Assembly: GCA_011056555.1 (NCBI GenBank)
Contig: DSEQ01000047.1
Span: forward strand, 62,001-126,000
DNA length: 64,000 nt
Direction: 5' to 3'
From: Candidatus Zixiibacteriota bacterium
GTDB lineage: Bacteria; Zixibacteria; MSB-5A5; JAABVY01
Shown: piece after piece, positions 13,372 through 55,994 of the stretch
How positions within the stretch are numbered: position 1 is the first letter of the stretch
Layout: each line of letters begins with the position of its first letter
The notes under the pieces: model-generated
Database searches by the model: none
The model's input: only the letters and a program-made list of their open reading frames with translations
Told to the model about the DNA's origin: nothing
Made by a program: the position numbers and the translations under genes

Positions 13372-15771
13372 TCAGCAGTCCGGGATGCCGTCGTCATTAA
13401 TATCGCAGGGTTCATTACCGCCCACGAAGACATAGTTGACTATCCAGACAGCGTCGGAGATATTGATTGAGCCATCGCAATTTACGTCCCCGGACGCAAG
13501 CGGATCGGGAGAGCTTCCGCCAACAAAAACATAGTTGACCATATAGACCGCATCGCTGACATTAACCAGGCCACTACTATTGGCATCGCCGCACCGGGAG
13601 AGTTGATTACCGGTCAAATTCGTTAGAATTGCGACACTGTTGGACAATGAATTTGTTACAGCCAGATCAAGATCGGTATCATCATCCAGGTCAGCGGCCA
13701 ATATAGAGGCAGGGGATGCACCGGCGCCATAATCAACCGCCGTCTTAAAAGTACCATCTCCATTGTTTTCCAGGATTGATACATTATAGGAACTGGAGTT
13801 GGCCACCGCCAGATCGGAATCGCCATCACCGTCGAGATCGGCGGCAAATAATGTTTGGGGCGCACTGCCAACATCATAACTCACCGGTGTCTGAAAAGTA
13901 CCGTCTCCATTATTGATTAAGATTGATACTTCATCTGACTGAACATTTGTTACCGCCAGATCAGGAACATTATCGTCATCCAGGTCGGCCGCAAATAATG
14001 CGAACGGGAAATAGCCAGCGCCATAGTTAACTGCTGCCTGAAACGAACCATCCCCATTATTCTTAAAAATCGAGATGTCGTCCGAACCGGAATTTGTTAC
14101 CGCCAGGTCGAGATCACTGTCTCCATCGAGATCGACAACATAAACTGCAAATGGATCCAAGCTGGCGCTATAATTCACGGCAGCCTGGAAAGTCCCATCC
14201 CCGTTATTCATGAGAACGGAGATGTTATCTGTGCCCTGATTAGCAGCAACCAGATCGAGATCGGTATCGCCATCCAGGTCTCCTGCAAATACTGACGTGG
14301 GATATTCGCCCACCGCATAGCTTACATCTGCCTGATATGATGCATCGCCATTGCTAATTAGAACCGAGACATCATTCGAATAGTAATTGGCCGTTGCGAT
14401 ATCGGCAAAGCCATCTCCATCAAGATCGGCTGCTATCAGAGACTGAGGTTGAGATCCTGCGCCGTAATTCACCGCCGTCTGGAAGGTCCCATCACCATTA
14501 TTTTTCAAAATAGACACATTCCAGTCAGTTTCATTAGCAACAGCGAGATCAAAATCCAGATCTCCATCAAGGTCTGCAGCATACATCGCACCCGGTGAAA
14601 CCCCGGTCCCGTAGCTTGGAGGCGCCGGAAATTCAGCATTTCCGTTATTTTTTAGAATTGATATATTTCCCGCTCCCGTATTCGCTACTACGAGATCGGA
14701 ATCCCCATCGCTGTCGAAATCAGTGGCAAACAGTGCATTAGGCCCATTACCGACATCAAAACCGACAGCTGCCTGAAAGGTACCATCTCCATTATTGATC
14801 AAGATCGATACTTCGTTTGACAGAGCATTTGTTATCGCCAGGTCTGGCACATTATCTTCATCCAGATCGGCGGCAAATAATGCAGCGGGGAAATTGCCTG
14901 CGCCATACCTGACCGCCTCCTGAAATGAACCATCCCCATTATTCTTGAGAATTGAAACGTCGTCCGAGCCATAATTTGCTGTCGCAAGATCAGGGTAATT
15001 GTCTCCGTCAAAATCGGCGGCAACGACTGAATAAATTATATCCCCGGCCTGGTACCGCACTGGAAGCTGAAATGTGGCATCTCCATTATTCATCAATATC
15101 GAAATACTATCTACCGTAGGATCGCCGACAGAATACGATACCGCCAGATCAAGATCCAGATCGTTATCCAGGTCTGCGGCAAATATTGTCTCAGCTCTAT
15201 CTCCTGCTACATAGTCTACGGCCGCCTGAAAAGTGCCATCCCCGTTGTTCTTCAAAACCGAGACACTATCTGCATCATAGCATGCCACAGCCAGGTCGGC
15301 ATCAGCATCTCCGTCCAGATCAGCGGCAAACACTGAGAACGGGGCAGCGGCTGCCGGATAATTTAGCGCCGTTTGAAAAGTACCATCCCCATTATTAATC
15401 AAAACGGAAACATTGCTGGATTCCGTGTTTGCAGAGACCAGGTCAATATCGGTATCCCCGTCGAGGTCGGCTGCATACACGGATTGGGGCAAGTCACCAA
15501 CCGGATAGCTCTGAGCTGGCTGATACCAACCATCACCATCGTTGATCAGAACTGAGATATCATCCGACAAAGCATTTGCCACGGCCAGATCGGGATCAGC
15601 GTCACCATCCAGATCAGCCGAGATGATCGAGGAGGGCGAAATGCCCACCTGGTAATCGACCCGGGTTTCAAAAACTGGTTTGGAGCGCAAGCTCGAACAA
15701 AACAGCAAAATGAAACATAAAACAACCACTCCGACTGTCCCGATCGGATTTTTTTGATCCAGAGTAAACAT
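13372..15771 (-). CDS. FG-GAP/VCBS repeat protein with C-terminal dockerin-like repeats
   Basis: About 13 tandem ADLDGDxDxDLAVAN..ISILxNNGDGTFQ repeats; C-terminus RCGDANSSGLVNVSDAVYMVNYVFVGG..GDVNCDGSINISDAVWIVNYVFVGG. Confidence 0.92.
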   Translation of the reverse strand: MFTLDQKNPIGTVGVVVLCFILLFCSSLRSKPVFETRVDYQVGISPSSIISADLDGDADPDLAVANALSDDISVLINDGDGWYQPAQSYPVGDLPQSVYAADLDGDTDIDLVSANTESSNVSVLINNGDGTFQTALNYPAAAAPFSVFAADLDGDADADLAVACYDADSVSVLKNNGDGTFQAAVDYVAGDRAETIFAADLDNDLDLDLAVSYSVGDPTVDSISILMNNGDATFQLPVRYQAGDIIYSVVAADFDGDNYPDLATANYGSDDVSILKNNGDGSFQEAVRYGAGNFPAALFAADLDEDNVPDLAITNALSNEVSILINNGDGTFQAAVGFDVGNGPNALFATDFDSDGDSDLVVANTGAGNISILKNNGNAEFPAPPSYGTGVSPGAMYAADLDGDLDFDLAVANETDWNVSILKNNGDGTFQTAVNYGAGSQPQSLIAADLDGDGFADIATANYYSNDVSVLISNGDASYQADVSYAVGEYPTSVFAGDLDGDTDLDLVAANQGTDNISVLMNNGDGTFQAAVNYSASLDPFAVYVVDLDGDSDLDLAVTNSGSDDISIFKNNGDGSFQAAVNYGAGYFPFALFAADLDDDNVPDLAVTNVQSDEVSILINNGDGTFQTPVSYDVGSAPQTLFAADLDGDGDSDLAVANSSSYNVSILENNGDGTFKTAVDYGAGASPASILAADLDDDTDLDLAVTNSLSNSVAILTNLTGNQLSRCGDANSSGLVNVSDAVYMVNYVFVGGSSPDPLASGDVNCDGSINISDAVWIVNYVFVGGNEPCDINDDGIPDC
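13609..15672 (-). repeat. Coding tandem repeat array (FG-GAP units)
   Basis: Repeated NNGDGTFQ..V.Y..G..P.S.FAADLDGD blocks read in the ORF translation; boundaries approximate. Confidence 0.85.
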
Positions 15772-39556: not shown

Positions 39557-42500
39557 TTACCTTATCAACAACATCTTGCGGACCATATGAAATTCGTCTG
39601 CTGTGATTCGATAGAAGTATACTCCGGTCGGTACCGGGTTACCATTACGATCGGTGGCATCCCAGGTTACGGAATGATATCCCTGCGGCAGGTTTTCGTC
39701 CACCAGCATCTTCACGGTCTGCCCCAGGACATTGTATACCTCCAGGGTGACATGGCACTCACGCGGAATTGAAAAATCAATAGTTGTAATCGGGTTAAAC
39801 GGATTGGGGAAATTGCGCCCGAGCGTGAAATTTTCGATATTCGATTGTCCCGCCAGGTACGCTTCCAGTATGCCATGAATTTTCTCAGCTCTGGCCCCCA
39901 GAGACATCTGCTGCAGATATGCATTAAGGCGCTCAAAGTTACCGGCTTTTTCATTAAGCTCGTCCACGGTAAATGCGATTGGCGCTCCCTCTATTTCATG
40001 AGACATGCCCCAGTAATTTTCAACCTGTGCCAGGTCATTACCATCAACGACACCGTCACCATTACAGTCTGCGTATGCGGCCCGTGCCGGTATCCAGCTC
40101 TTTGCCGCCTGCCGCGTCCACAGGTCGGGATTGCCGCGCCTTGTTTCTCCCGAGATACCCCAATAAACTCCGATCGGAAGCACATCCATTTCATTTACCA
40201 CACCATCGTTATTGGCGTCACCTGGAAACACGGCGAGGCCGGTGGTGAAATCTAAAATGAAATCGTCCAGGGGAGATCCCTCGGCCGTGCCATCCCCGTC
40301 CCCGTCAAGAGTATTCCCGGCGAGATCTGCAATCCCGCCGTCGAGGACTATCCTGATCGAATCACTTATTCCAAATCCGTCTTCGGGCTGGAAGCTGAGA
40401 AGATTTTTTTCTGCATTATATTTTATCGCTCCCAGAATTGTTGCTCCGGTTTTCAATGATGTTATTGTCACAGCTCCGGGTTTCAGGCTCTCCTGATCAA
40501 GCGGCTCTGAAAAATAGACAGTGACAGAATCTGTAACCGCATACTCTTTTTCATTGCTGTAGGGGCTGGTTGAATCCACGACGGGCGGGGTCCTCTCTGT
40601 AATGCCCGTACCGGTAAGGGCAACAGTCCATTGCGGATAAGCCGGATCATCTGAGATAATCGTCAGGACACCCTCCACCGGCCCCGGAGCGTCAGGGGTG
40701 AATGATACCGGTATCTGCCTGCTCCTGCTTACCGCATCGAGAACGAAGCTGCCGGGGAAACCAACATTATACACAGAAGGCGAGACACTGATATCCGACA
40801 CGGTAAGACTGAAGGTGTCGGGAAAGACAACATTGGATTTGACGGTCAGATTCAATGTCCTGCTGCTGTCTTCCGGCACTTCTCCGAAGTCCAGGGCCAG
40901 GGGTGTTGTTTCGATCATGGAATCCGCCTGAGAACTGAATTGCAGAGTCTGCGTATCGGCTGGAATACCACCCGAACCTGTGGTAATGAGCAGCACTTCA
41001 TAATTGCCCCGGGGCAAATCTTTGGTCATCGAAACCGACAGGAAAGTGCTGTCGAATAAGTTCGCTGTGGAATCACCGAAGCTGACCCTTGCCCGGCCCC
41101 TGGAGGGCGCAACCGGCAGGGAGGCGCTGAATGAAACAGGCCGGTCAAAAAGCCCGAACAGAGAATCAACAAAGAAATCATAGCGGTAATTAAATTTGTC
41201 GAACTGGATGTCATATACCCCGGATGTGAATCCGAAAACCGTGATATAATCAATTTCAGTTGTTGTGTCAGGAACATCAGCGCACTCATTCATGCACATA
41301 AGCGACACATCAAAGCGGCCCGGTGTAAGATACCTGTGCCGGGGATTCTGTTCCAGCGCGGTGAAACCATCCCCGAAATCCCAGAACCAGGTTATGGGAC
41401 TATAAAGCGATCGATCGAAGAAATCGACGGAGAGCGGCGCCGAGCCCTGCCGCGGTCCAGCGCTGAGATCCGCGGCTACTCCCATCAACGCATTTATATA
41501 TCCGGTCTTGACCACCCGAGCTTCCCCGCACGAGTTGGTCGCCATCAGCTCTACAGTATAAACGCCCGGAGTCTCGTAGGTATGAGCTGGGTTCACATCG
41601 GTTGAGCTTGTTGCATCTCCGAAATTCCAGAGATACTGCTCGCCCTTGCCACGGGTCAGGTTTTCAAAATTCACTGTGAAAGGAACACATCCCCGAGTAG
41701 CATCAGCCTGGAACTCCGGCACCGGCTGGCTCATTATATGTATATAATTTTGCCTGTTTATAACCACAGTCGTGCAGGGCGTTACCATGTGGAGGCTCAC
41801 TGTAAATGTGCCCGTGTCTTCGTAAACATGCGAGGGATTGAGAACGTTGTAGGCCTCTCCCCCGTCTCCAAAATCCCATATCAGGGAATCATAATACCCC
41901 TTGAGGTTGAGCGCGGTGAAGCTGATGCTTAACCCGGCACACCCGGCAGTATCAGACAGGGCTACCAGGTCGCCCGACATAGTACAGTCAGCATATTCAT
42001 CAGGACCAATATCGGCCGCACCGGCAATGCTCCTGTCCTGGCCCTTAAAATCGAAGCTGAGCAGATTGGGGAGGTCTGTCTTGCCCCTGTTGATCATCCC
42101 GGATGCATCAGTCAAACGATAATCCCCGCCAAAAACATCTGCCAGATCCGGATCGAGATAATAATCATTGGAATCCGGCGGACAGCCCGAACACCCGTTA
42201 TAGGGAGTGTTGTTATAGTAATTGTTACTGTTGTAGTGTGTGATCGGTGAGTCATTTAATCCCATACCATCGGGATTATTATTCTGGAAGATATTATTAT
42301 AAATGTACGGGTCAAAATTGTATTCAACGAAAATACCCGCGCCGAAATTATGGGCCACGTTCCGGTAAAACAGATTGTTATATATATAGCTGCTGAACGC
42401 CGCAACGGCTATTCCGCCTCCCAGCTGAGCCCGATTGCCCCTGAAGATATTGTTCTGGACCACCCAGTACGGAGATTCGCCATGATTACCGAACATGTAT

Positions 42501-43231
42501 ATGGCGCCGCCGTGCGAATAAAAAGGATCTGTGGCCGAATTGTTTATGAAGATGTTATTATAGCAATTTACATTGCAGCCATCGGCATAAATTGCACCAC
42601 CGTTATTGGCGGCCCTGTTTCCAGAAAATAGATTGTCGTAGATATCTGCGGTACTGGAGACTAAAGCGATGGCTCCGCCTGACAGCGCAGAAGAGTCGTT
42701 TATGAACTCATTATTGAATATATCCGCCCGGGAGCCTATCATGTAGATTGCTCCGCCCGAAGATTCACTGATGCATTTTTCGAAGCGGTTGTTTTTGACG
42801 GTGAGCGATTTTGTATCCCCGGCACTAATCGCCGGCCTTGCCGAAACAATATTGAAACCGTCTATCACACAGCCAGCGGATTTTTTATCCAGAAGGAACA
42901 CGCCGTTTTTGTCGGCGCCCGACAGAGTCGTTGAATCGGGGCCGTACTGACTGCGTAAATAGACCCGATTGTACAGACTAATAACCTCATCACTGCATTC
43001 ATATATACCCGGCTTCAATGTAATGGTATCCCCTGCAGCAGAACTTCTGACCGCAATGCCGATTGAGCCGTAGGGATTATCGAATGAGCCGTCGCCGCTT
43101 TCGTCGCTGCCGTCCGGGGCCACCCATAATTCCGCGGCCGCAATATTCGCGGCGGCTAACCCGAAGACCAGCACGGCAACCGTCGCGGCCATCGACAGAA
43201 ATATTTTATTCGGCCAAAATCTCATACACAC
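39557..43231 (-). CDS. Giant secreted protein: parallel beta-helix, PKD repeats, Ig-like domains, dockerin-like EF pair and T9SS-type C-terminal domain
   Basis: DGSFDNPYGSIGIAVRSSAAGDTITLKPGIYECSD; several WDFGDG PKD motifs; FPGDANNDGVVNEMDVLPIGVYWG...YADCNGDGVVDGNDLAQVENYWGMS; RNFPNPFNPITTIDFSIPRECHVTLEVYNVLGQTVKMLVDENLPQGYHSVTWDATDRNGNPVPTGVYFYRITA. Confidence 0.93.
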   Translation of the reverse strand: MCMRFWPNKIFLSMAATVAVLVFGLAAANIAAAELWVAPDGSDESGDGSFDNPYGSIGIAVRSSAAGDTITLKPGIYECSDEVISLYNRVYLRSQYGPDSTTLSGADKNGVFLLDKKSAGCVIDGFNIVSARPAISAGDTKSLTVKNNRFEKCISESSGGAIYMIGSRADIFNNEFINDSSALSGGAIALVSSTADIYDNLFSGNRAANNGGAIYADGCNVNCYNNIFINNSATDPFYSHGGAIYMFGNHGESPYWVVQNNIFRGNRAQLGGGIAVAAFSSYIYNNLFYRNVAHNFGAGIFVEYNFDPYIYNNIFQNNNPDGMGLNDSPITHYNSNNYYNNTPYNGCSGCPPDSNDYYLDPDLADVFGGDYRLTDASGMINRGKTDLPNLLSFDFKGQDRSIAGAADIGPDEYADCTMSGDLVALSDTAGCAGLSISFTALNLKGYYDSLIWDFGDGGEAYNVLNPSHVYEDTGTFTVSLHMVTPCTTVVINRQNYIHIMSQPVPEFQADATRGCVPFTVNFENLTRGKGEQYLWNFGDATSSTDVNPAHTYETPGVYTVELMATNSCGEARVVKTGYINALMGVAADLSAGPRQGSAPLSVDFFDRSLYSPITWFWDFGDGFTALEQNPRHRYLTPGRFDVSLMCMNECADVPDTTTEIDYITVFGFTSGVYDIQFDKFNYRYDFFVDSLFGLFDRPVSFSASLPVAPSRGRARVSFGDSTANLFDSTFLSVSMTKDLPRGNYEVLLITTGSGGIPADTQTLQFSSQADSMIETTPLALDFGEVPEDSSRTLNLTVKSNVVFPDTFSLTVSDISVSPSVYNVGFPGSFVLDAVSRSRQIPVSFTPDAPGPVEGVLTIISDDPAYPQWTVALTGTGITERTPPVVDSTSPYSNEKEYAVTDSVTVYFSEPLDQESLKPGAVTITSLKTGATILGAIKYNAEKNLLSFQPEDGFGISDSIRIVLDGGIADLAGNTLDGDGDGTAEGSPLDDFILDFTTGLAVFPGDANNDGVVNEMDVLPIGVYWGISGETRRGNPDLWTRQAAKSWIPARAAYADCNGDGVVDGNDLAQVENYWGMSHEIEGAPIAFTVDELNEKAGNFERLNAYLQQMSLGARAEKIHGILEAYLAGQSNIENFTLGRNFPNPFNPITTIDFSIPRECHVTLEVYNVLGQTVKMLVDENLPQGYHSVTWDATDRNGNPVPTGVYFYRITADEFHMVRKMLLIR

Positions 43232-43234
43232 CTG

Positions 43235-44068
43235 TTATGGTTCGGGGAGAACAGTTACCTCCACATCACCGTTTTCCAAAACCAGATTTGCGAAACCATT
43301 GACCGGAGCGCCGGCAGCGTCAGTCAGCATTGCCGTCGTTGGATTAAAATTGAGCGGGCTGACACCCTCGGACAACGGGTCAAAGAAGATGCGCGCCAAC
43401 CAGCCGGAGCCGGTGACAGCGGGCTGCCCCTGGGTAAGGGTCAGGGCGACTGCCACGAAATTGGAATCCATGCGAACCGTGCTGACCGCATCAGGACCAA
43501 GAAAATCCCCGACCTGAACCTCGGTCGGGACAATTACATTGTTGTTGTATTCAATTCTGAAACTGGCGCCAAATAGATTTTCCACACGATAGACATAGAT
43601 ATCGAAATATTTTATATCATCGGTATTGGGTGAAACGCTCTGAAAGAGGGGATTGACCTTGAGCATCAATATCTGCGGTACCATCTGAATTAATACAGTA
43701 ACATCCTCACCCAGTCCGACATTCGCCTCAGCATTACCAAAATAGAGTAGTCTTTCCTGGCTGCCGTAGGCGCCAAGAGAGAAACTGATGTTCTGCCCGG
43801 GTGGAATGTCCACCGTCACATTGACTCTTCCCGATTCGAATGGCACTTCTGTGTTTATAAGAATGATATCGCCGGCCGTTACCCAGAGTTCGACCCGTGC
43901 GACATTGGAACTCAACTGGGGGCCCTCGAAAACCGCCGCGAGTTCTACCGGCACAGCAAACTCAGGCCCGGAACTCCTGCTGCAGCCGGAGATATTCAGC
44001 GCGATTAGACTGAGGAGGGCGAGAAACCCTCCCGATAAAACCGAGTTTTTGATCGTTATAGTTTTCAT
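43235..44068 (-). CDS. Lipoprotein with C-terminal cohesin-like domain
   Basis: Lipobox ALNISGC; C-terminal YFDIYVYRVENLFGASFRIEYNNNVIVPTEVQVGDFLGPDAVSTVRMD...VALTLTQGQPAVTGSGWLARIFFDPLSEGVSPLNFNPTTAMLTDAAGAPV...GDVEVTV matches the cohesin-like pattern. Start MKTITIKN at 44068. Confidence 0.8.
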   Translation of the reverse strand: MKTITIKNSVLSGGFLALLSLIALNISGCSRSSGPEFAVPVELAAVFEGPQLSSNVARVELWVTAGDIILINTEVPFESGRVNVTVDIPPGQNISFSLGAYGSQERLLYFGNAEANVGLGEDVTVLIQMVPQILMLKVNPLFQSVSPNTDDIKYFDIYVYRVENLFGASFRIEYNNNVIVPTEVQVGDFLGPDAVSTVRMDSNFVAVALTLTQGQPAVTGSGWLARIFFDPLSEGVSPLNFNPTTAMLTDAAGAPVNGFANLVLENGDVEVTVLPEP

Positions 44069-45216
44069 CAGAAACTTGCTCCCACTCCGATAAGAAATTG
44101 CCATCCGTTCAGATCCAGATCACCGTCATCGGCGGAACCGGTGAAATACTCGAATTCGGCCTGGCCGTGAAACATCTGGTAGAACGAGCTGCTCAGGCCG
44201 GCCCCTATTCCAAAGTAGTTGGATGAACCGAAGCTGCGGGGATGATCGTCTGCATAACCATTTGCGGCAACATACTGGTAATCCAGCAGGGCCTTCAGAG
44301 CGATCCGCTCGCTGGCGCCGTAAACAGCCTCGCCATAGAGCCGGGTCTCGGCCCCATGACTTCTCTCCGGCTCGGTAACCAGTTCTCCCGAAGAAAGTCT
44401 TTTATCCTTGCCCCTGACAATCTGCCGGAGGCCAAGCAGCGCGGCTATCCTGTCCTGACTGAACCTGAATTCCCCGGTAATGTCAAAAATAGCTCCGTCC
44501 TTGAAGATCGCGGTGCCGTCGAGCTCATCCTCGCCATAGATACTGTAGACAAGAGCCAGACGTCCCCAGAACTGGTCTCTCCGGGCGGTTCCGAATGCGC
44601 CGATGCGGAACATATTTCCCGGCTTGTAATCCTCGATACCTTCCAGGGGCTCATAGGCGGCCTTAAGCATGTATGAAGCGCCTCCCCCGAATGAGAAAGC
44701 GTCGAAGGTGCGTGCGTAACCGGCCTCCAGTGTAGCTCCGAACCCCTCGCCGTAATTCTTGATGGGAAAATTTAGAAATGATTCTGTGAGCAGGTTCACC
44801 ACACCAATTTCATCGTTATCCAGAGATTTCTTGCCGGTGGGAAGATTGATTCCCGCTCCCAGCACCACTCGATCTTCGAAGAATGAGCCATAAACCGCCA
44901 GCCGGGTATCATTCAGCCCCGTAAGTGAAGCGTCGCTGCCATCATTAAATTCCCGGTTAGAGCCGGCCGTTGATGAGGTGAAGATGATCTCCACATTATC
45001 CCGGACAGGCACAAAACCGTAAAGCGGCAGCACCCATTGATTCAGGCTAATTTCATTATCAGCAGAATCTGCGATAGTCCAGCTCTGGTATATAAATTTC
45101 ATTTCTCCTGACGGCGGCTGTCCAAATACGATTTGCCCCTCCAAAGGCTGGTAGATAAACAGAAGAGCGGTCAGAAGAAAGATGATCGTCAAATATTTTC
45201 TACTACTATCCATCAT
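44068..45216 (-). CDS. Predicted outer-membrane beta-barrel protein of unknown function
   Basis: Signal sequence; alternating amphipathic beta strands; GAGINLPTGKKSLDNDE; ends ...LIGVGASF. Confidence 0.7.
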   Translation of the reverse strand: MMDSSRKYLTIIFLLTALLFIYQPLEGQIVFGQPPSGEMKFIYQSWTIADSADNEISLNQWVLPLYGFVPVRDNVEIIFTSSTAGSNREFNDGSDASLTGLNDTRLAVYGSFFEDRVVLGAGINLPTGKKSLDNDEIGVVNLLTESFLNFPIKNYGEGFGATLEAGYARTFDAFSFGGGASYMLKAAYEPLEGIEDYKPGNMFRIGAFGTARRDQFWGRLALVYSIYGEDELDGTAIFKDGAIFDITGEFRFSQDRIAALLGLRQIVRGKDKRLSSGELVTEPERSHGAETRLYGEAVYGASERIALKALLDYQYVAANGYADDHPRSFGSSNYFGIGAGLSSSFYQMFHGQAEFEYFTGSADDGDLDLNGWQFLIGVGASF

Positions 45217-45219
45217 AAC

Positions 45220-46521
45220 CTACTCGTCAAATGAGCCGTTAATAGTAACATTGCCGCTGCCCACCACCGGCAGGGTGTAGGGATTATCCCCTTCATCCTC
45301 TCCGATATCGGGTTGAAAACCGAGAATGGTTTGAATAGCCCTGAGGCTCTGTCCAGTCTGCGCCGAGGTCACCGCGCTGGCATACAGCGCGAAATCCTCC
45401 ACAATTTCCCCCGGCGGCTCGACTTCACCGGTGTAGTCGGATAATCCGACGACCTGTTCGCGAGCTTTCACAGCAAGCTCAAAACCGGGGTCTTCTTTGA
45501 GAGCATTGTCGAACTGGGCCTGAGCCAGCGAATACATATTCTGATCCATATATTCCAGCCCCAGGCTGTACGACAGGAATGCCAGAAAAGAGTTTGTGGG
45601 CTGCGCCAGGAACTCCTCCTCTTCTTCGGGAGAAAGCTCGTAACCAAGCGTGCTTAAAATATTTCTGGCCACATTTTTCTGTAGCGCGAAGAACCTCTGC
45701 AGGTCTCCCTCGACATCATCGGGATAATTTACAAAACCATCTTTAACGCCGATAATGCCGGATTCAATTACTACCTCGTCCTCTTGCTGAGAGAGCTGTC
45801 CGGAGACAATCCGGGACGCTCCGATCAGCTTTCCCACGCGGGGAACCCGGTCCTTGTCGAAGTATTCCGATCTGGTGAGCTGGATCTCGTCCATGATGGC
45901 CTGAAGCTTCAGCCTTTCCACGACTTTAAGCTCCGGAACCTTGCTCAGGTCTATAACCAGCAACTCGGAAAGGCCCCGAGCCAGGGGGGAATAGCGAGGC
46001 GTAAGGTTGCCTGGATTGAAACCCAGGACAGCCAGAGTATTATCCGGTATCTCCTCGGTCTTGATCGATTTCTCCCGGGAGATTATCTGGTTCACTTCCT
46101 GCTGGACCGCCTTGTCGGTCAGGTACCTGACACGATGCCTGATCCGGCCGGAGATCTCCTCATCCGGATGCTTATCGAGGTAAGCTCGATAGATATCCGC
46201 GGCCTGCTCCAGTTCTCCCAACCGCTCATATGACAGACCCAGAAATAAATTCACTGAGCCGTCTTCAGGTGCCAGAATTGCCGCCTGTTTGAGAGCATCA
46301 ACAGCCTCTCCATAATTTCCGGCCCGATAATGAGCAATACCCATGAATTTCCAGGGGTCTGCTTTGTCGGGATTCTCGGAAATTGCATCATTAAAAAAGG
46401 CAATTGCATCCTGATAGTTTCCTGCCTCAAGTTCCGTCTTGCCGCGGTTATATATTCCGCTTGAGCAGGAAACCAAAATAAGTGATAAAGCTGTCAGGAG
46501 ATACAGTAACCTAATTTTCAA
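45220..46521 (-). CDS. TPR lipoprotein with CsgG-like domain
   Basis: LILVSCSSGIYNRGKTELEAGNYQDAIAFFNDAI (lipobox plus TPRs); YSPLARGLSELLVIDLSKVPELKVVERLKLQAIMDEI...KLIGASRIVSGQLS. Confidence 0.85.
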   Translation of the reverse strand: MKIRLLYLLTALSLILVSCSSGIYNRGKTELEAGNYQDAIAFFNDAISENPDKADPWKFMGIAHYRAGNYGEAVDALKQAAILAPEDGSVNLFLGLSYERLGELEQAADIYRAYLDKHPDEEISGRIRHRVRYLTDKAVQQEVNQIISREKSIKTEEIPDNTLAVLGFNPGNLTPRYSPLARGLSELLVIDLSKVPELKVVERLKLQAIMDEIQLTRSEYFDKDRVPRVGKLIGASRIVSGQLSQQEDEVVIESGIIGVKDGFVNYPDDVEGDLQRFFALQKNVARNILSTLGYELSPEEEEEFLAQPTNSFLAFLSYSLGLEYMDQNMYSLAQAQFDNALKEDPGFELAVKAREQVVGLSDYTGEVEPPGEIVEDFALYASAVTSAQTGQSLRAIQTILGFQPDIGEDEGDNPYTLPVVGSGNVTINGSFDE

Positions 46522-46528
46522 TAGGCAT

Positions 46529-47581
46529 TTATCCTTTCAAGGCTAATGGTTCCAGACGTTCCTTTTTCTTCATGGCCTCAGCATATCCGGGCGCCAGATC
46601 GAGCGCCTTCTTATATTCTGCATAGGCCTCAGTATATTCTTTCTTATCTTCCAGAGCCAGCCCCAGGGAATAATGGTAAAGGGCCTCATATTTGGCATCC
46701 CGGCCCTCGTTAATCTTCTCCTTAGTATCCTTGTCGACATCTATCTGCATAACATCAAGGATTTTAAAGACTAATTCCTTCTGTAACTCAAAGACGTCGT
46801 CGGGGTCTCCCTCGACCTCCTCAGCCTTGATGACCTCGCCCGTTTCCACCGAGACAAGACGGCCAAATATTTTGAAGTCATTTTTATCGACCTTCATAAA
46901 GCCGCCCATAAGGATAGTCTGGGCGCCGACCAGCTTACCCATCTGAACCGCGGTGCTCTTATCGGTCAGGTCGGACTGCTGCAGTTCGAGCTCCTCCACA
47001 AGAAAATTGATACGGTCACGTTCCACCACACGGAGCGCTTCAGACTTGGTGATATCCTGGATCATCATGGACATCAAACCCTTGCACAACGGATCAAGTT
47101 TTTCCTGGTCTTCAGAGATAGAATGGTTATCGAAATACATAACCGCTATGGTTTCCTTGTCGGTAACGGCCGGGCGTTTGGAGGCGGGTATCCCCTTCTC
47201 GACAGCATACCAGATATTCATCATCTGGGGCGGATATTCATCCGGAGTCAGTTCGATTGTGGGATCAAGATCGGCCAGCCTTTCCAGATAAGCCTGGGCC
47301 TCTTCGGTCTGCCCGCGGTTTGCCTCCGACATGGCCAGAATCAGAAGCGCCCGTTTTTCCTGCTCGGGATTAAGGTCCTGCTGTGCCAGAAGACTGGAGG
47401 TTTTTATCACCGCATCTTCAAATTGTGCCCTGCGGTACATCTTATTTGCTTCTGTGATGGTCTGTTCGATATCGCTGGATGCCAGCTTGGGCGTATCCTC
47501 CTGTTGCGCCGAAGCGCACGCCAGGTAGGAAAGCATGAGAACGAAAAAAAGCCCCGCGAAGATTTTTCTCTCCCTGACCAT
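46529..47581 (-). CDS. TPR protein with CsgG-like domain (paralogue of 45220..46521)
   Basis: IAVMYFDNHSISEDQEKLDPLCKGLMSMMIQDITKSEALRVVERDRINFLVEELELQQSDLTDKSTAVQMGKLVGAQTILMGGFMK; flanking TPRs. Confidence 0.85.
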   Translation of the reverse strand: MVRERKIFAGLFFVLMLSYLACASAQQEDTPKLASSDIEQTITEANKMYRRAQFEDAVIKTSSLLAQQDLNPEQEKRALLILAMSEANRGQTEEAQAYLERLADLDPTIELTPDEYPPQMMNIWYAVEKGIPASKRPAVTDKETIAVMYFDNHSISEDQEKLDPLCKGLMSMMIQDITKSEALRVVERDRINFLVEELELQQSDLTDKSTAVQMGKLVGAQTILMGGFMKVDKNDFKIFGRLVSVETGEVIKAEEVEGDPDDVFELQKELVFKILDVMQIDVDKDTKEKINEGRDAKYEALYHYSLGLALEDKKEYTEAYAEYKKALDLAPGYAEAMKKKERLEPLALKG

Positions 47582-47689
47582 TAACTACCCTCCTGGTAAA
47601 ATTTACTGAATAATAGGTAGGGCAATTTTAAAAATCAAGTTAAAAACTTGTTACTCCCACATATTTTACGTTTATAGTCCTGTTTTCGC

Positions 47690-49363
47690 TCAATTTTTCC
47701 TTAATTTGAAATTGATTTCTACATCTTCATCTGCACCGATATTTATAAGCTTATATCCGCCCACAGTTTGATAACCGTCACGAACCACTGCAATTTTGTG
47801 AGGGCCCTCTGCCAGGTCAAAGGCAAACGGCGTTCCCACATCCTGCTTCTTCCCGTCAATATAAATCTCACCCCATGAGGACTCACCCCCGATAAAACTG
47901 GCTGAGATACGCACCTTTCCCGTAGGAGCAGAAAAATTATATTCCCGCGACTGCATTTTCTCCGTGACTGTGACAGTGTCAAAGAAGCTGGCATTATTCC
48001 AATCCGCGTCATTGTTTACCAGAAGAATCTCATGCCTGCCCGGTTTCAACGTATCCAGATATACAGGTACATCATCATAGGGAATCTTCGTTCCGTCAAT
48101 ATAGATTTCGGCGGCATTGTTATAATCATAAGGGGCATAATAAATTTCCAGTTTGCCGTTATACCTTGGTGCAGATTCGGCCGCCTGCTGAGAAACCTGC
48201 TGGCCTTGCTCATCTGAGGAAGGGTCAGATACGGCCGGCTCACCGGTCTTCCCATCGGCGGAGGAGAGGACTGTGTCCTGCTGTGCGTTTTCTGTCGGAC
48301 CGCTTTGTTCTTCTGTTATGGCCCTCTGCCCCCCCGGTTTCAATGCAAACTGATAGGCGATAAAAAGAACCACCACCACCGCAATCGCTGCAGCCAGGAT
48401 CAATATCGGCCGGGGACCTTTCTTTGTGGGGGGCTGCTCAAATACAGTCTTGTCTGAATCCTCGTTACGGATCTGCGTACTCAGATTTGATTCACGGTCA
48501 AAGGCCGCGGCCGCCAGAGTCGCCTCGTCATCGGCGGGCAGGTTCGCACCTCTCTGAAAATCCGCGATCTTCTGGGACATCTCCTGGGCCGACTCAAAAC
48601 GGTTCTCCGGCTCTTTCTCGAGCGCCCGCAGGACAATCTCTTCCATCCCCCCTGGCACATCCCTACGAATATCGGATGCCCGGGGCGGAGCTTTTTCCAT
48701 ATGGGCTTTCATCAGAAGAAAATCAGAATCCTCTTTAAAGGGAAGTTCCCCGGTAAGCATCTGGTACAGGGTTATGCCGGTGGAATACAGGTCGGTACGG
48801 TAATCAATATCCTTCCGGCCCCGAATCTGCTCCGGGGACATATACGGCAGGGACCCTGCTGCTGTTCCGGTCTGGGTCATTTTTTGCGCCCCCAGTATCT
48901 TCGCAATTCCGAAGTCAGTTATTTTCACCAGGCCGGATTCGGTAACCATTATATTGGAAGGTTTGATATCCCTGTGTATGATTCCGTTGCGATGCGCATA
49001 TCCGAGCGCCGAAAGAAGTTGTCGTGCTATCATTGCTGTGTCCTGTACAGAAAACGGCCCCTTATCGCAAATGATCTCATCCACGTTCCTGCCGTCCACG
49101 TATTCCATGATGATGAAATGCATATCATCAATGACTTCAAAGTCGTAGATGGTTACGATATTGGGATGATTGAGCTTGGCCATAGCCTTGGCTTCCCGAT
49201 GGAACCAGGCGGAAAATCTCTCTTCCGAGGCAAGCTGGCTGTGCAGCAGCTTGAGAGCAATTTCACGTTCGATCATGGTGTCGAAGGCCCTGTAAAGTAT
49301 GCCGAATCCGCCTTCGCCGCGCTTTTCACGCAATTCGTATTTTCCGATTCTTTTTGTGTCCAT
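47690..49363 (-). CDS. Serine/threonine protein kinase with TM segment and extracytoplasmic PEGA-like repeats
   Basis: GEGGFGILYRAFDTMIEREIALKLL, IIHRDIKPSNIMV, DFGIAKILG; TM ILILAAAIAVVVVLFIAYQFAL; PEGA-like GEIYIDGKKQDVGTPFAFDLAEGPHKIAVVRDGYQT. Confidence 0.95.
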   Translation of the reverse strand: MDTKRIGKYELREKRGEGGFGILYRAFDTMIEREIALKLLHSQLASEERFSAWFHREAKAMAKLNHPNIVTIYDFEVIDDMHFIIMEYVDGRNVDEIICDKGPFSVQDTAMIARQLLSALGYAHRNGIIHRDIKPSNIMVTESGLVKITDFGIAKILGAQKMTQTGTAAGSLPYMSPEQIRGRKDIDYRTDLYSTGITLYQMLTGELPFKEDSDFLLMKAHMEKAPPRASDIRRDVPGGMEEIVLRALEKEPENRFESAQEMSQKIADFQRGANLPADDEATLAAAAFDRESNLSTQIRNEDSDKTVFEQPPTKKGPRPILILAAAIAVVVVLFIAYQFALKPGGQRAITEEQSGPTENAQQDTVLSSADGKTGEPAVSDPSSDEQGQQVSQQAAESAPRYNGKLEIYYAPYDYNNAAEIYIDGTKIPYDDVPVYLDTLKPGRHEILLVNNDADWNNASFFDTVTVTEKMQSREYNFSAPTGKVRISASFIGGESSWGEIYIDGKKQDVGTPFAFDLAEGPHKIAVVRDGYQTVGGYKLINIGADEDVEINFKLRKN

Positions 49364-49477: not shown

Positions 49478-51499
49478 TCAGTATGCAAGGCAAGGCGGAG
49501 GCTGACCGCCGACAAATACAAAATTGATTATAAACACAGCATCCGACACATTTATATTATCGTCACAATTTGCGTCACCCTGATATAATTCCGGCCGGGG
49601 AGGCTCTCCCCCGACAAATGTAAAATTGATGATCCAGACCGCATCGCTGACGTTGATAGTACCGTCATTATTGGAATCGCCATTGAATCTGACAATATAC
49701 ATGGGCAGGGAATCTACACCAAAGGCGACGCTGTCTTTATGAGAGGTCGCAGTGAGAATGATGTTATTAACTGTTCCCGGCAGGAGATCGGGCCCGGAGA
49801 GAATGTCAGCCGCGACCATAACAGAATCTTTAACTGGAATTGTGAAAAGGGTGTCATGAAGCTGGCAGTCCCATCCCATTTCATCACTGATAGTCATGTG
49901 ATAGATGTCCTGGTTCGAGCCGCGGTTGTAGACCCAGAAATTGACTGTCCTGGGGCCCATGGAATATATATCATACGGCCCCGCGTCCCTCACATCCGCA
50001 GCGTAATCCGGCCAGGGAAGCAGCTGGGCGGAATAGACATAATCTAGACCCTCCCCATACCAGGATCTTACAACCGGATTCAATATTATATAGTCATAGT
50101 TTTCAATCTCGGATACTATCAATGATCCGGCGTAAGCTTCGTTTAATGGGATTTCCATAAACGTGTAGTTGTTGTCCGGCTCTGCCAGAATAACATTCGC
50201 ACTCCAGTGATAGCCGTCCTGGCCATCAAAGTGTATCAGGAATTCTCCGATTACATCTCCAAATTCAGCAAACTTAATATAGTTCGCTCCCAACCCGTGC
50301 GGACGCATGGCAGAAGGAGGATGCATATTGCTGACCGGGTAGAATGAAATAGTCCCGATCAGATCGACTGTCTCAGGATAATCCCATCCCTGTTCGTAAT
50401 GGTTACCATCATCATATATGGAGGTGCACCAGTTCCAGGCGGCAAATTCCCCGAAGGCATCATAGAGATTAGAGCCATAGCCCAGCAAGGCTGTGTTAAT
50501 GGCGGTATAAACATCATCATTATATATCAGGTTTTCCCAGATGCTTTTAATCAGCGTTGTATCGAAGTTATGATCCAGGAATCGGTTCCAGACAAAGGCT
50601 CCGTAATCATGGTAGTAAGAGCTGTCATTTAATGGCAGTTGTGGATAGTCGAAGAAACACCAGAGATAGTTGTAATTGTCATTGACCTGGGGATAGCAGA
50701 TTTCCTCCATCCAGCAGGAGGAGACCTCCATATACCAGACCTCGCTCAAGAGATTGTAAGCCATCTGAGTCGCGTGGAAGTATTCATGCGCACAGGTGAC
50801 CTTTGCGGCGCCCTTCTCGAGCCCCTCCGGATCATCGTTGGGAGGGAAATCTATAAAGTTTCTGTGTACCACCATATAACTGATCCAGTCATCCCATGCC
50901 TCCGGCCCGGGGCTTTCGGGCTGAGTATAGCCATAATAGGGCATCTCCATAAGATAGATATCGTAAAGTGAATCACCGCCCTCGCTGCCGTCTGAGGGCG
51001 GATATAGGTAAGCTAAATTACCATGCATGCACCTGTATGAACTGTCACTGTAATGGGCGACGCAGTCCACATAATCGGGGATCCCGTTGAACGGATCGAC
51101 ATCGGATGAATCGACTGCATGAGCGCCCTCGATATTGTAGTGAATCCGGAAATACCCGTCGGGACTTAGGGCTGAAAAGACCATGTTCGGCCTTCCGAGA
51201 TAATTGTTGAGGATTTCCTGCTCCGGCCCGCTCAGTCGCTCCAAATTCAGTCTGGCCTCGATCATAATTTCTGTTGCTGATTTCAGCTTGACATCCGGCT
51301 CGAGCCTGAATTCCTCGGGCAATCTTTCGGGGGCGTGAACGGTCATGACCTTGTAGATAATCTTCTCTCCGAGACTGATCCGATTCTCGGCATAGGCAGT
51401 TTCGATCTTGTCAACCGGGGAGCTTTTTGCAGACAGGCTGGCAGCGACAAATAATATCGCGGCAGAAAAGATGAATATCTTAAAGATATTGCTTTTCAT
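49478..51499 (-). CDS. MXAN_6640-like putative metalloprotease with C-terminal dockerin pair
   Basis: VTCAHEYFHATQMAYN (HExxH); FNGDSNNDGTINVSDAVWIINFTFVGG..YQGDANCDDNINVSDAVFIINFVFVGG. Confidence 0.88.
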   Translation of the reverse strand: MKSNIFKIFIFSAAILFVAASLSAKSSPVDKIETAYAENRISLGEKIIYKVMTVHAPERLPEEFRLEPDVKLKSATEIMIEARLNLERLSGPEQEILNNYLGRPNMVFSALSPDGYFRIHYNIEGAHAVDSSDVDPFNGIPDYVDCVAHYSDSSYRCMHGNLAYLYPPSDGSEGGDSLYDIYLMEMPYYGYTQPESPGPEAWDDWISYMVVHRNFIDFPPNDDPEGLEKGAAKVTCAHEYFHATQMAYNLLSEVWYMEVSSCWMEEICYPQVNDNYNYLWCFFDYPQLPLNDSSYYHDYGAFVWNRFLDHNFDTTLIKSIWENLIYNDDVYTAINTALLGYGSNLYDAFGEFAAWNWCTSIYDDGNHYEQGWDYPETVDLIGTISFYPVSNMHPPSAMRPHGLGANYIKFAEFGDVIGEFLIHFDGQDGYHWSANVILAEPDNNYTFMEIPLNEAYAGSLIVSEIENYDYIILNPVVRSWYGEGLDYVYSAQLLPWPDYAADVRDAGPYDIYSMGPRTVNFWVYNRGSNQDIYHMTISDEMGWDCQLHDTLFTIPVKDSVMVAADILSGPDLLPGTVNNIILTATSHKDSVAFGVDSLPMYIVRFNGDSNNDGTINVSDAVWIINFTFVGGEPPRPELYQGDANCDDNINVSDAVFIINFVFVGGQPPPCLAY

Positions 51500-52832: not shown

Positions 52833-55800
52833 TCAGCAGTCCGGCTCTCCGTTGCCATCAGTATCGCAGGGAGCACTGCCACCCACGAAAACATAATTGA
52901 TAATCCATACCGCATCGCTGACATTAACAGTAGTATCACAGTTGGCATCTGCTGATGCCAGTGGGTCGGGCTGCGATCCTCCGACAAAGACATAATTAAT
53001 GATAGTGACCGCATCGCTGACATTGACAGACTGGTCGGAATTTGCATCGCCGCAAATATAGCCCGGATTAATCTGCATGCCCAGAAGCTTGGAGGTTTTA
53101 CTGCCGGTCTCATCCTGCACCTCGGCCCAGAATCCTTCCGGGCCCTCATTTAGCGGCACACCCGACAGCAGACCATCCTCTGAAAGGGTCAGGCCGCTGC
53201 CCTCAAGACTGCTGTATTTATCGCTCCATAATTTGTCACCGGTTCCGCCGGTACAGGTAAGCTGGTAGCTGTAGGCTTCGCCGACTTTGCCGTCAGGCAA
53301 TGTATCCTGGACGATTGTCAGACTCGGATTGACGGTGAATTCAAAGTCCTGCGTATCGTCCGCGCCAACGGCATCTGCGGCCCGTGCGGTAAAGTGTATT
53401 ATGCCGGCTGCGGATGGTACACCCGATATGATTCCTGTGGCAGAGAGTGTCAGACCGGTACCATCCAGATCAGAATTCACATCACTCCAGACCAGACTGC
53501 CGGTTCCTCCCGTGGCGCTGAGCTGCTGGGAATATGTTCGGCCCTGGGTCCAGTCCGGAAGAGTGTCCTCCTGAATTTGAACAACGGGATTGATTTCAAA
53601 GCTAAACTGTTTTTCATCAGTCTCACTGGCGGCATCGGTTACCATTGCGGTGAAGGTTATGGTGCCGGTCACAAACGGCAGTCCTGAAAGAAGGCCGCCG
53701 CTCGCCAGAGACAGACCGGTTCCCTCGAGATCATCATACTTATCGCTCCAGGTCAGCGCGCCGGTTCCGCCGGTCGCTTCCAGCTGCTCTGAATATAATA
53801 GTCCAAATGTCCAGTCGGGTAATGACAGAGTTACGATTTCGGGAACGATGCTCATGGGCGGGAACACTATCATGTCCACCCAGGCGCAATCGGAACCTGT
53901 GGATTGACTTCCGTCCTTAGTATAGGCCCATTTGAATGTGTGCATTCCGGGATCGACGCTGAAACTGACCTGTGCCCAGGGATCCTCCCCGGACCATTTC
54001 TGCTGCTCGACATCATCGATATAGAACCTCAAATAATCCCATCCTGATTCGGACGAAACCCTGTAGTAGAAACTGATCTCACCCCCCGAGAGCACTTCTG
54101 CCGAGAGCTCCATGGATGAGTTTTGATTATGTGTGATGGTCCCCGATTTTGCGGAATAGACGCCTTCATATACATTCGTGGTTACGGCCTGCCAGCTGGC
54201 GCTGCCGCCCATAACCCAGGGATACTGGGTGAAACCGCCGCTTTCGAAGTCCTCTATCTGCTGCCCGATCATCAGGTCGAAGAATATGCTGTCGGTGTAG
54301 CCGCCGTCGGCAGTAACATCCATCCTGAACGGCGCCAGGTAATTGATTGGACAGGAGGAATCGATATCGAACTGATACTGGCTGTTCGACTGCGCGGTCC
54401 CGCCCAATGCCGCGATGGTCGGATAGCTTGAGATTGACTGGGTGATTGTGATATAGGGATCATCCGATGAAAGAACACCGCTGGTGTTGTATGCTATGCC
54501 GGCCCCGTAGTTTATCAGTGTTATATTGGCCACGACATTATCACCCGGGTCAAGCGTGCCTCCGCTATGTGAGACATAATCGAGGAGAGGGATATTCGGC
54601 AGAGGAGTCATGGCAACATCAACACGGTTCGTCTGCAGATTGACTACAGTAATAGAATATATAGTATCGATATAATAGCCGGGGGCGGAGAATTCCAGGT
54701 CGTAGGTTCCGGCTTCAATCATACGATGGTAATCACCGACCTCCGGATCGGTATAGACCATGGAACTGTCCGTATCGCTGTCATGGCCGATTACCCTGAC
54801 CATAGCGTGCACCGGCAGACCGGTATTGGCGTCCGTGACAACACCGCGGATGCCATACAGGGCCTGCTCGAGCCAGTCCAATAATGATACTCTCAGGTAT
54901 CCCCACCAGGCCGGAAGCTGGCTGGCAGGGAGCAGCTTTGTGCTGGATATTTCCATGGTTACTTCGCGGCTGTCGTGGAAATAATTCATGTAATCCTGGC
55001 GCCCGCCGGAAATTGAATACCAGGCATAGCCATTCGTAATGCCATTGTTCAGGTCGGTCAAATAGCCCGAGGGGCTGTAGTATTGCGCTGAATCTGCAAA
55101 CTGCCTTGAGATATCGACATACCATTGATTGTCGGCATGAAGTGCAGCCCATGTATCCCAGGGATAATTTACGACTTCCGCGCCGCCGTGGAAGTTAGCG
55201 CCGATGACGAAGCTGTGGGCTTCCGCGAAATCCATCATGGCCTGGGTTTCAACCTGACGAGTGCCTCCGGGATAGGGGCCGTCCTCAGGATCGGGAAAAT
55301 TACGGTTCAGGTCGTAGCTATTGGCGTTGTAGCGCGTAGCCCCATAGACGGAGTTATCTCCGCCGGCATAAGTTCCATCCGGATTGGCGAGCGGATTAAT
55401 CCAGATTTCGCAGCTGTCCACCAGCCGCGTAATCAGTGAATCTGTACCATAGGCAGTCAGCAGAGAATCTGCCAGGCGGAGCATCAGCACATAGCCGGCG
55501 GTCTCGTCTCCATGGATGGTGGCGGAATACATCACCTCCGGCTCGTCTTCCTCAACCCCCACATTGTCGGATATCTCCAGAAACAGCAGCGCCCTTCCCT
55601 CAACCGTAGTACCGACATTATGCACCTGGCACAACGAAGGGTAATCCAGGGCAAATTGATTCATCATGGAGACATAGCCGGAGTAAGTCGGATATACATC
55701 CCATTCCAGAATATCGGCTTTATCTGAGGACATCTCGGGCTCGATCAAGGTTCCCGGATGCGGCAGGATTTCATAGCCATAGCCGTATTGCTCAAATTCG

Positions 55801-55994
55801 GCCAGTTCTTCTTGATTAGCATAGGCATAGACCGTCAGGCCCTCGACATTATCGATGGAAATCATGCGGGAAAGCTTTTCCAGCATTTCTTTAGAGTCGA
55901 TTTGAAATTTGAAATAGACCTCAGTAGATTTAGCCTGAATCGCCCCCAAAAGGAATAGTATTATAACTGGAATGATAATGTAAAGCTTTTTCAT
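52833..55994 (-). CDS. M14 family zinc carboxypeptidase with putative-Ig repeats and C-terminal dockerin pair
   Basis: SATIHGDETAGYVLMLRLAD, NPDGTYAGGDNSVYGATRYNANSYDLNRNFPD, VTMEISSTK; three LPDWTxGxxYSxQLxATGGTGxLxWSD repeats; ICGDANSDQSVNVSDAVTIINYVFVGG..ADANCDTTVNVSDAVWIINYVFVGG. Confidence 0.94.
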   Translation of the reverse strand: MKKLYIIIPVIILFLLGAIQAKSTEVYFKFQIDSKEMLEKLSRMISIDNVEGLTVYAYANQEELAEFEQYGYGYEILPHPGTLIEPEMSSDKADILEWDVYPTYSGYVSMMNQFALDYPSLCQVHNVGTTVEGRALLFLEISDNVGVEEDEPEVMYSATIHGDETAGYVLMLRLADSLLTAYGTDSLITRLVDSCEIWINPLANPDGTYAGGDNSVYGATRYNANSYDLNRNFPDPEDGPYPGGTRQVETQAMMDFAEAHSFVIGANFHGGAEVVNYPWDTWAALHADNQWYVDISRQFADSAQYYSPSGYLTDLNNGITNGYAWYSISGGRQDYMNYFHDSREVTMEISSTKLLPASQLPAWWGYLRVSLLDWLEQALYGIRGVVTDANTGLPVHAMVRVIGHDSDTDSSMVYTDPEVGDYHRMIEAGTYDLEFSAPGYYIDTIYSITVVNLQTNRVDVAMTPLPNIPLLDYVSHSGGTLDPGDNVVANITLINYGAGIAYNTSGVLSSDDPYITITQSISSYPTIAALGGTAQSNSQYQFDIDSSCPINYLAPFRMDVTADGGYTDSIFFDLMIGQQIEDFESGGFTQYPWVMGGSASWQAVTTNVYEGVYSAKSGTITHNQNSSMELSAEVLSGGEISFYYRVSSESGWDYLRFYIDDVEQQKWSGEDPWAQVSFSVDPGMHTFKWAYTKDGSQSTGSDCAWVDMIVFPPMSIVPEIVTLSLPDWTFGLLYSEQLEATGGTGALTWSDKYDDLEGTGLSLASGGLLSGLPFVTGTITFTAMVTDAASETDEKQFSFEINPVVQIQEDTLPDWTQGRTYSQQLSATGGTGSLVWSDVNSDLDGTGLTLSATGIISGVPSAAGIIHFTARAADAVGADDTQDFEFTVNPSLTIVQDTLPDGKVGEAYSYQLTCTGGTGDKLWSDKYSSLEGSGLTLSEDGLLSGVPLNEGPEGFWAEVQDETGSKTSKLLGMQINPGYICGDANSDQSVNVSDAVTIINYVFVGGSQPDPLASADANCDTTVNVSDAVWIINYVFVGGSAPCDTDGNGEPDC

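Follow-up and report, generated by a model that had tools for sequence, protein, structure and literature searches.

A single-cohesin lipoprotein and the variant dockerin of its neighbouring gene: a proposed surface pair in Candidatus Zixiibacteriota

Genomes of uncultured phyla such as Candidatus Zixiibacteriota encode dockerins by the dozen and have neither a cellulosome nor a known receptor logic. The locus described here poses this problem in a compact form: within the 64,000-nucleotide stretch of DNA that was analysed (the window), a gene for a lipid-anchored protein resembling a cohesin lies among several genes for dockerin proteins, which raises the question of what, if anything, this protein binds. 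The reading favored here, to which a probability of roughly three in four is assigned, is that of a dedicated cohesin-dockerin pair, in which a lipoprotein with one cohesin, probably situated in the outer membrane, would receive the type IX-secreted product of the next gene.

The reading frame of the candidate receptor spans 43235-44104 when counted from its first ATG, and the likely start, MKTITIK..., gives a gene at 43235-44068. Its features are as follows.

43235-44068, minus strand: cohesin lipoprotein, 277 amino acids (open reading frame; Pfam, PDB profile and fold searches)
43982-44068, minus strand: signal peptide and lipobox ISGC, with the Cys at residue 29 (sequence)
43676-43966, minus strand: N-terminal all-beta domain, residues ~35-131 (AlphaFold secondary structure)
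43253-43675, minus strand: cohesin domain, residues ~132-272 (Pfam PF00963 at residues 160-237; cohesins in Foldseek)
43556-43558, minus strand: codon of Arg171, within LFGASFR (covariation with a Glu of the partner's dockerin; predicted to face the dockerin)

The product combines a signal peptide with a lipobox Cys conserved across its family, as expected of a bacterial lipoprotein. Among 22 aligned orthologs this Cys is nearly invariant (at least 90% of the family) and the LFGASFR block is strongly conserved, while a lipobox-like motif is present in 37 of the 39 cohesin reading frames linked to the variant dockerin described below, the remaining two being cut or partial. An orthologous lipoprotein was detected in 63 of the 119 genomes of the class. 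The lipobox, taken together with the sorting domain of the proposed partner, suggests that the protein is probably located in the outer membrane and displayed at the surface. The N-terminal domain (residues ~35-131) matched no known family in a Pfam search and is absent from the minimal homologs of the lipoprotein.

Identification of the C-terminal domain began with a weak signal. The only Pfam match of the protein was Cohesin, at residues 160-237 (E = 5.7e-4; 20.5 bits, below the cut-off of 24.1), and because this sub-threshold score for a single protein was weak, a family was built. Pfam Cohesin matched 17 of its 22 aligned members (best E-value 4.9e-11), with two orthologs scoring 43 bits, above the cut-off. 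A phmmer search of the PDB with the single protein gave no match; the family profile was needed, and of its 18 matches among all PDB sequences the best 16 were all cohesins. The AlphaFold model of the mature protein, made with seven sequences (pLDDT 90.4, pTM 0.81), has the beta-sandwich fold of cohesins, and a Foldseek search of the PDB with this model returned cohesins at ranks 1-40 (E = 6.6e-9; TM-score by target up to 0.79), among them the single-cohesin anchors OlpA and OlpC (3ul4, 4dh2) and the Archaeoglobus fulgidus cohesin 2xdh (E = 5.8e-8). The last ~140 residues of the protein are thus a cohesin, beyond chance. A non-cohesin Ig-like fold, which the preliminary description had named as the finding that would overturn its assignment, was ruled out by these 40 best matches. 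That description had placed a cohesin-like domain in the C-terminal ~130 residues of a protein anchored by its lipobox, as opposed to a scaffoldin with many cohesins. Both statements hold: Pfam finds one cohesin and zero carbohydrate-binding matches, where a scaffoldin would have several cohesins and a carbohydrate-binding module.

The gene directly downstream starts 3 bp past the stop of the cohesin gene and encodes the proposed partner.

39557-43231, minus strand: proposed partner, a secreted protein of 1224 amino acids with a beta-helix, three PKD domains, Big_5, a variant dockerin and a type IX sorting domain (Pfam, NCBIfam; conserved neighbour)
39998-40225, minus strand: the variant dockerin, here called Docx (homolog alignment; Pfam Dockerin_1, 36.2 bits)
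40190-40192, minus strand: codon of Glu1014, at position 10 in the first calcium loop (homolog alignment, covariation; numbered 11 in the literature, where it opens the recognition pair; PMC4728124)
39572-39811, minus strand: type IX secretion sorting domain (FlgD_ig / Por_Secre_tail) at the partner's C-terminus (TIGR04183, 32.1 bits, cut-off 23)

Docx scores well above the Pfam PF00404 cut-off (36.2 against 22.9 bits) and contains the two calcium F-hand loops of a dockerin, DANNDGVVNEMD and DCNGDGVVDGND. It departs from the usual dockerin of ~54 residues with a short link between the loops: a conserved insert of ~25 residues, GxxGPxR....W..QPA..W...ATYAD, separates them, and the Pfam match spans 71 residues as opposed to 54-56 in almost every other dockerin that the genome encodes. 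The recognition pair also differs, being Glu-Met/Leu in Docx and mostly Val/Ile-Ser (positions 10-11) in the sampled ordinary dockerins of the same genome, whose calcium-loop matches carry V, I, L or C in 23 of 24 cases and Ser in 22 of 24 at these positions. The AlphaFold model of Docx, made with four sequences, was of low confidence (pLDDT 41), so its fold is assigned from sequence. The C-terminal sorting domain, together with a gene for the translocon component SprA in the genome (SprA_N, 51.1 bits), marks the partner as type IX cargo.

The association between Docx and the cohesin extends well beyond this locus. A profile search found Docx in 43 of 134 Candidatus Zixiibacteriota genomes, in one to three copies each, and many of these genomes contain dozens of ordinary dockerins besides. 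Among the 57 places in the phylum where Docx occurs, 35 have a cohesin gene next to them or within one compact cluster with them; no cohesin gene was found alongside in 10 with complete flanks, and 12 are cut by contig ends, flank completeness having been judged by eye. The two genes adjoin in colinear, divergent and convergent layouts among the relatives. The passenger domains of the Docx protein vary while the pair stays, and include beta-helix/PKD, a CotH kinase with a lamin-tail domain, and DUF6055. At its simplest (L109, L112, L117, L118), the lipoprotein has little beyond lipobox and cohesin (168-189 amino acids) and lies beside a Docx protein. In a second phylum, that of the Poribacteria record L101, Docx was found in 8 of 86 genomes; a cohesin reading frame adjoins Docx at 8 of the 18 loci, and seven of these eight frames have a lipobox-like Cys.

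Several loci show other arrangements. The genome analysed here encodes a second Docx protein on contig C15 (L102:5762-9679; 1306 amino acids, with LVIVD beta-propeller repeats), near which no cohesin gene was found; it may be another client of the cohesin lipoprotein at 43235-44068. In genome G002 the Docx gene lies in two overlapping frames (L074:3149-6809), reflecting a frameshift or an assembly error. The records L150 and L151 each hold one polypeptide with cohesin domains flanking Docx on both sides, and a double-cohesin protein lacking a lipobox is encoded downstream of L150.

Residue-level evidence came from the linked pairs, in which the Arg that ends the LFGASFR block, cohesin residue 171, covaries with position 10 of Docx loop 1. 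Of 2075 charge tests spanning every pair of columns, this combination gave the strongest result (counts 27, 0, 1 and 6; Fisher p = 5.2e-6), and corrected mutual information places it at rank 11 of 12666, below the top. With the second phylum included, 41 of 42 pairs are concordant, 26 being basic with Glu and 15 non-basic without Glu, a tally to be read as suggestive because the pair had caught the eye before any scan was run and every second-phylum pair is non-basic. The sole discordant pair is L112, and L111, one of the 15 non-basic pairs, is gapped at the dockerin site. On the tree, three and four changes are needed at the two positions, amounting to about three independent events. On alignment to the CipA sequence, Arg171 presumably lies two residues beyond the equivalent of cohesin residue D39, on the same dockerin-facing strand. 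D39 is bound by dockerin residues S11-T12, and position 10 of Docx loop 1 is the first of this cohesin-contacting pair, position 11 in the literature numbering (PMC4728124). The covariation suggests that Arg171 of the cohesin faces the loop-1 Glu of Docx.

Upstream of the pair lie four further genes.

47690-49363, minus strand: Ser/Thr protein kinase with a PEGA domain, at the head of the conserved cluster (Pfam; conserved neighbour)
46529-47581, minus strand: CsgG-like-domain and TPR protein (Pfam PF03783, 1.3e-13; conserved neighbour)
45220-46521, minus strand: TPR and CsgG-like-domain protein (Pfam; conserved neighbour)
44068-45216, minus strand: predicted outer-membrane beta-barrel protein, 382 amino acids, ending in Phe (sequence inference; conserved neighbour)

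The order on the minus strand is therefore kinase, two CsgG/TPR genes, barrel, cohesin and Docx protein. From the CsgG/TPR genes through the Docx gene, neighbours overlap or are separated by gaps within 10 bp, as in an operon, and the stop of the barrel gene overlaps the start of the cohesin gene. The barrel candidate has no match in Pfam or NCBIfam. The cluster is retained in most of 20 relatives, and its kinase, CsgG/TPR and barrel genes (44068-49363) form a conserved unit that is separable from the cohesin-Docx pair. In this genome and in certain relatives (L074, L081, L087), the neighbour of the cluster is a gene (49478-51499 in the window) for a putative metalloprotease of the MXAN_6640 family with an ordinary dockerin.

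The number of dockerins in the genome invites a different interpretation, namely that the lipoprotein is a general surface receptor for many of the ~84 proteins with ordinary dockerins, in the fashion of a cellulosome. The preliminary description had counted at least five complete dockerin proteins in the window and regarded them as potential clients. Pfam Dockerin_1 reduces the count to four genes above its cut-off (13372-15771, 39557-43231, 49478-51499 and 52833-55994), with two additional weak, partial matches; three of the four are ordinary, and only the adjoining 39557-43231 has the variant that co-occurs with the cohesin. A genome-wide comparison of the two domains, which that description had also proposed, was carried out on the 3.58 Mb assembly of 55 contigs and yielded about 86 dockerin matches above the cut-off, as against 13 cohesin matches at E <= 1, 3 of them above the cut-off. 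This imbalance, and the presence of two more ordinary-dockerin genes within 12 kb, are what a shared receptor would lead one to expect. Against it stand the recognition residues of ordinary dockerins, which differ from the Glu-Met/Leu of Docx, the many genomes that have dozens of dockerins and no detectable ortholog of the lipoprotein, and a cohesin linkage that tracks Docx and not ordinary dockerins; in the genome at hand, only 4 of the 86 dockerin genes, that of Docx included, have a cohesin in another reading frame within 4 kb. A general receptor is accordingly judged unlikely, and 49478-51499 and 52833-55994 were set aside as clients because of the recognition class of their dockerins and because they are not linked. 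Two side observations concern the same genome: its ordinary dockerins (L014-L043) have a near-uniform Val/Ile-Ser pair, yet few cohesins are detectable, and L001, L003, L007 and L012 combine a cohesin-like and a dockerin-like domain within single proteins, L001 and L003 additionally terminating in a type IX-type tail.

Two further explanations would deny the cohesin a role as the final anchor of a dockerin. The cohesin fold is part of a wider carbohydrate-binding superfamily, and the domain could be a structural or carbohydrate-binding beta-sandwich that happens to lie near dockerins through inherited gene order; such a view would accommodate the several Docx genes that have no neighbouring cohesin and some relatives where other domains come after that N-terminal region. 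It sits poorly with the recurrence of the cohesin, rather than the N-terminal domain or the barrel, beside Docx in minimal loci and in the second phylum, with the constancy of the pair when passengers change, and with the charge covariation, and is regarded as quite improbable. The tight clustering with barrel, CsgG-like and kinase genes might instead point to a docking station for export, where lipoprotein, barrel and CsgG-like proteins deliver the dockerin protein to a secretion pore or take it over from one. The minimal loci (L109, L112, L117, L118), however, consist of cohesin and Docx genes with zero barrel, CsgG or kinase matches, and the partner has a type IX sorting domain of its own in a genome that encodes SprA, which leaves a docking station with little likelihood. 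Within the reading of a dedicated pair, the kinase, the two CsgG/TPR proteins and the barrel probably regulate the complex or help to assemble it.

The proposed pair would operate in three steps. By homology, the partner is exported by means of its type IX sorting domain, just upstream of which the variant dockerin is positioned. Passage through the type IX translocon would then be followed by loss of the C-terminal domain and folding of the dockerin around calcium. Finally, as linkage and covariation suggest, the lipoprotein cohesin would bind Docx, with Arg171 facing the loop-1 Glu, and the large beta-helix/PKD protein would be kept on the cell surface. Calcium-dependent binding, one-to-one specificity and retention after loss of the sorting domain are predictions of this scheme, with binding suggested by linkage and covariation. 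The 10 complete Docx genes that lack a cohesin alongside, one of which is that of L102 in the genome analysed here, and a covariation of few events with one exception, weigh against a dedicated pair. A broader proposal, held tentatively and at somewhat less than even odds, is that the pair may represent a charge-matched cohesin-dockerin class not described before, insulated from the many ordinary dockerins of the cell, by which a lipoprotein anchor would serve as a general means of retaining type IX-secreted proteins at the outer membrane in at least two Gram-negative phyla.

The one-to-one combination of lipoprotein cohesin and variant dockerin offers a concrete, testable pair for phyla of this kind and suggests a means of holding type IX cargo on the surface. 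It also comes with a predicted single-residue specificity contact, Arg171 with the loop-1 Glu, and should binding prove true, cohesin-Docx would provide a new orthogonal coupling for engineering.

A search of one literature collection found nothing joining dockerin with Zixibacteria or with Poribacteria, and a lipoprotein cohesin paired with an insert-bearing dockerin class in two phyla was not found in the literature search. Single-cohesin surface anchors, adjacent cohesin and dockerin genes, and non-cellulosomal cohesins are already known (PMC10553843, PMC8542988). The Clostridium thermocellum cellulosome anchors OlpA and OlpC likewise have one cohesin on a cell-surface protein. They belong to the surface of a Gram-positive organism that degrades cellulose, whereas the protein described here carries a lipobox and comes from a phylum that has type IX secretion; its proposed partner is the product of a neighbouring gene with an inserted dockerin. 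The Archaeoglobus fulgidus cohesin 2xdh is found outside any cellulosome, as is the case here, and the cohesin and dockerin genes of that organism are adjacent. Non-cellulosomal cohesins are reportedly reviewed by Peer et al. in 2009; to our knowledge, neither a lipid anchor nor a type IX partner nor an insert dockerin is known for them or for A. fulgidus. In uncultured syntrophic sulphate reducers, cohesin and dockerin genes also lie side by side, proposed to encode surface adhesins; in contrast to the present locus, a lipoprotein anchor and a variant dockerin are not described in the portion of that source considered here (PMC10553843). The cellulosome-like complex of the Cloacimonadota (Ca. 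Stygibacter) is again a dockerin/cohesin system of an uncultured phylum, in which dockerin enzymes occur with a cohesin protein bearing a C-terminal sorting domain. That protein is a 3755-amino-acid multi-cohesin scaffoldin with carbohydrate-binding domains (PMC8542988), whereas the locus described here would encode a one-to-one lipoprotein receptor.
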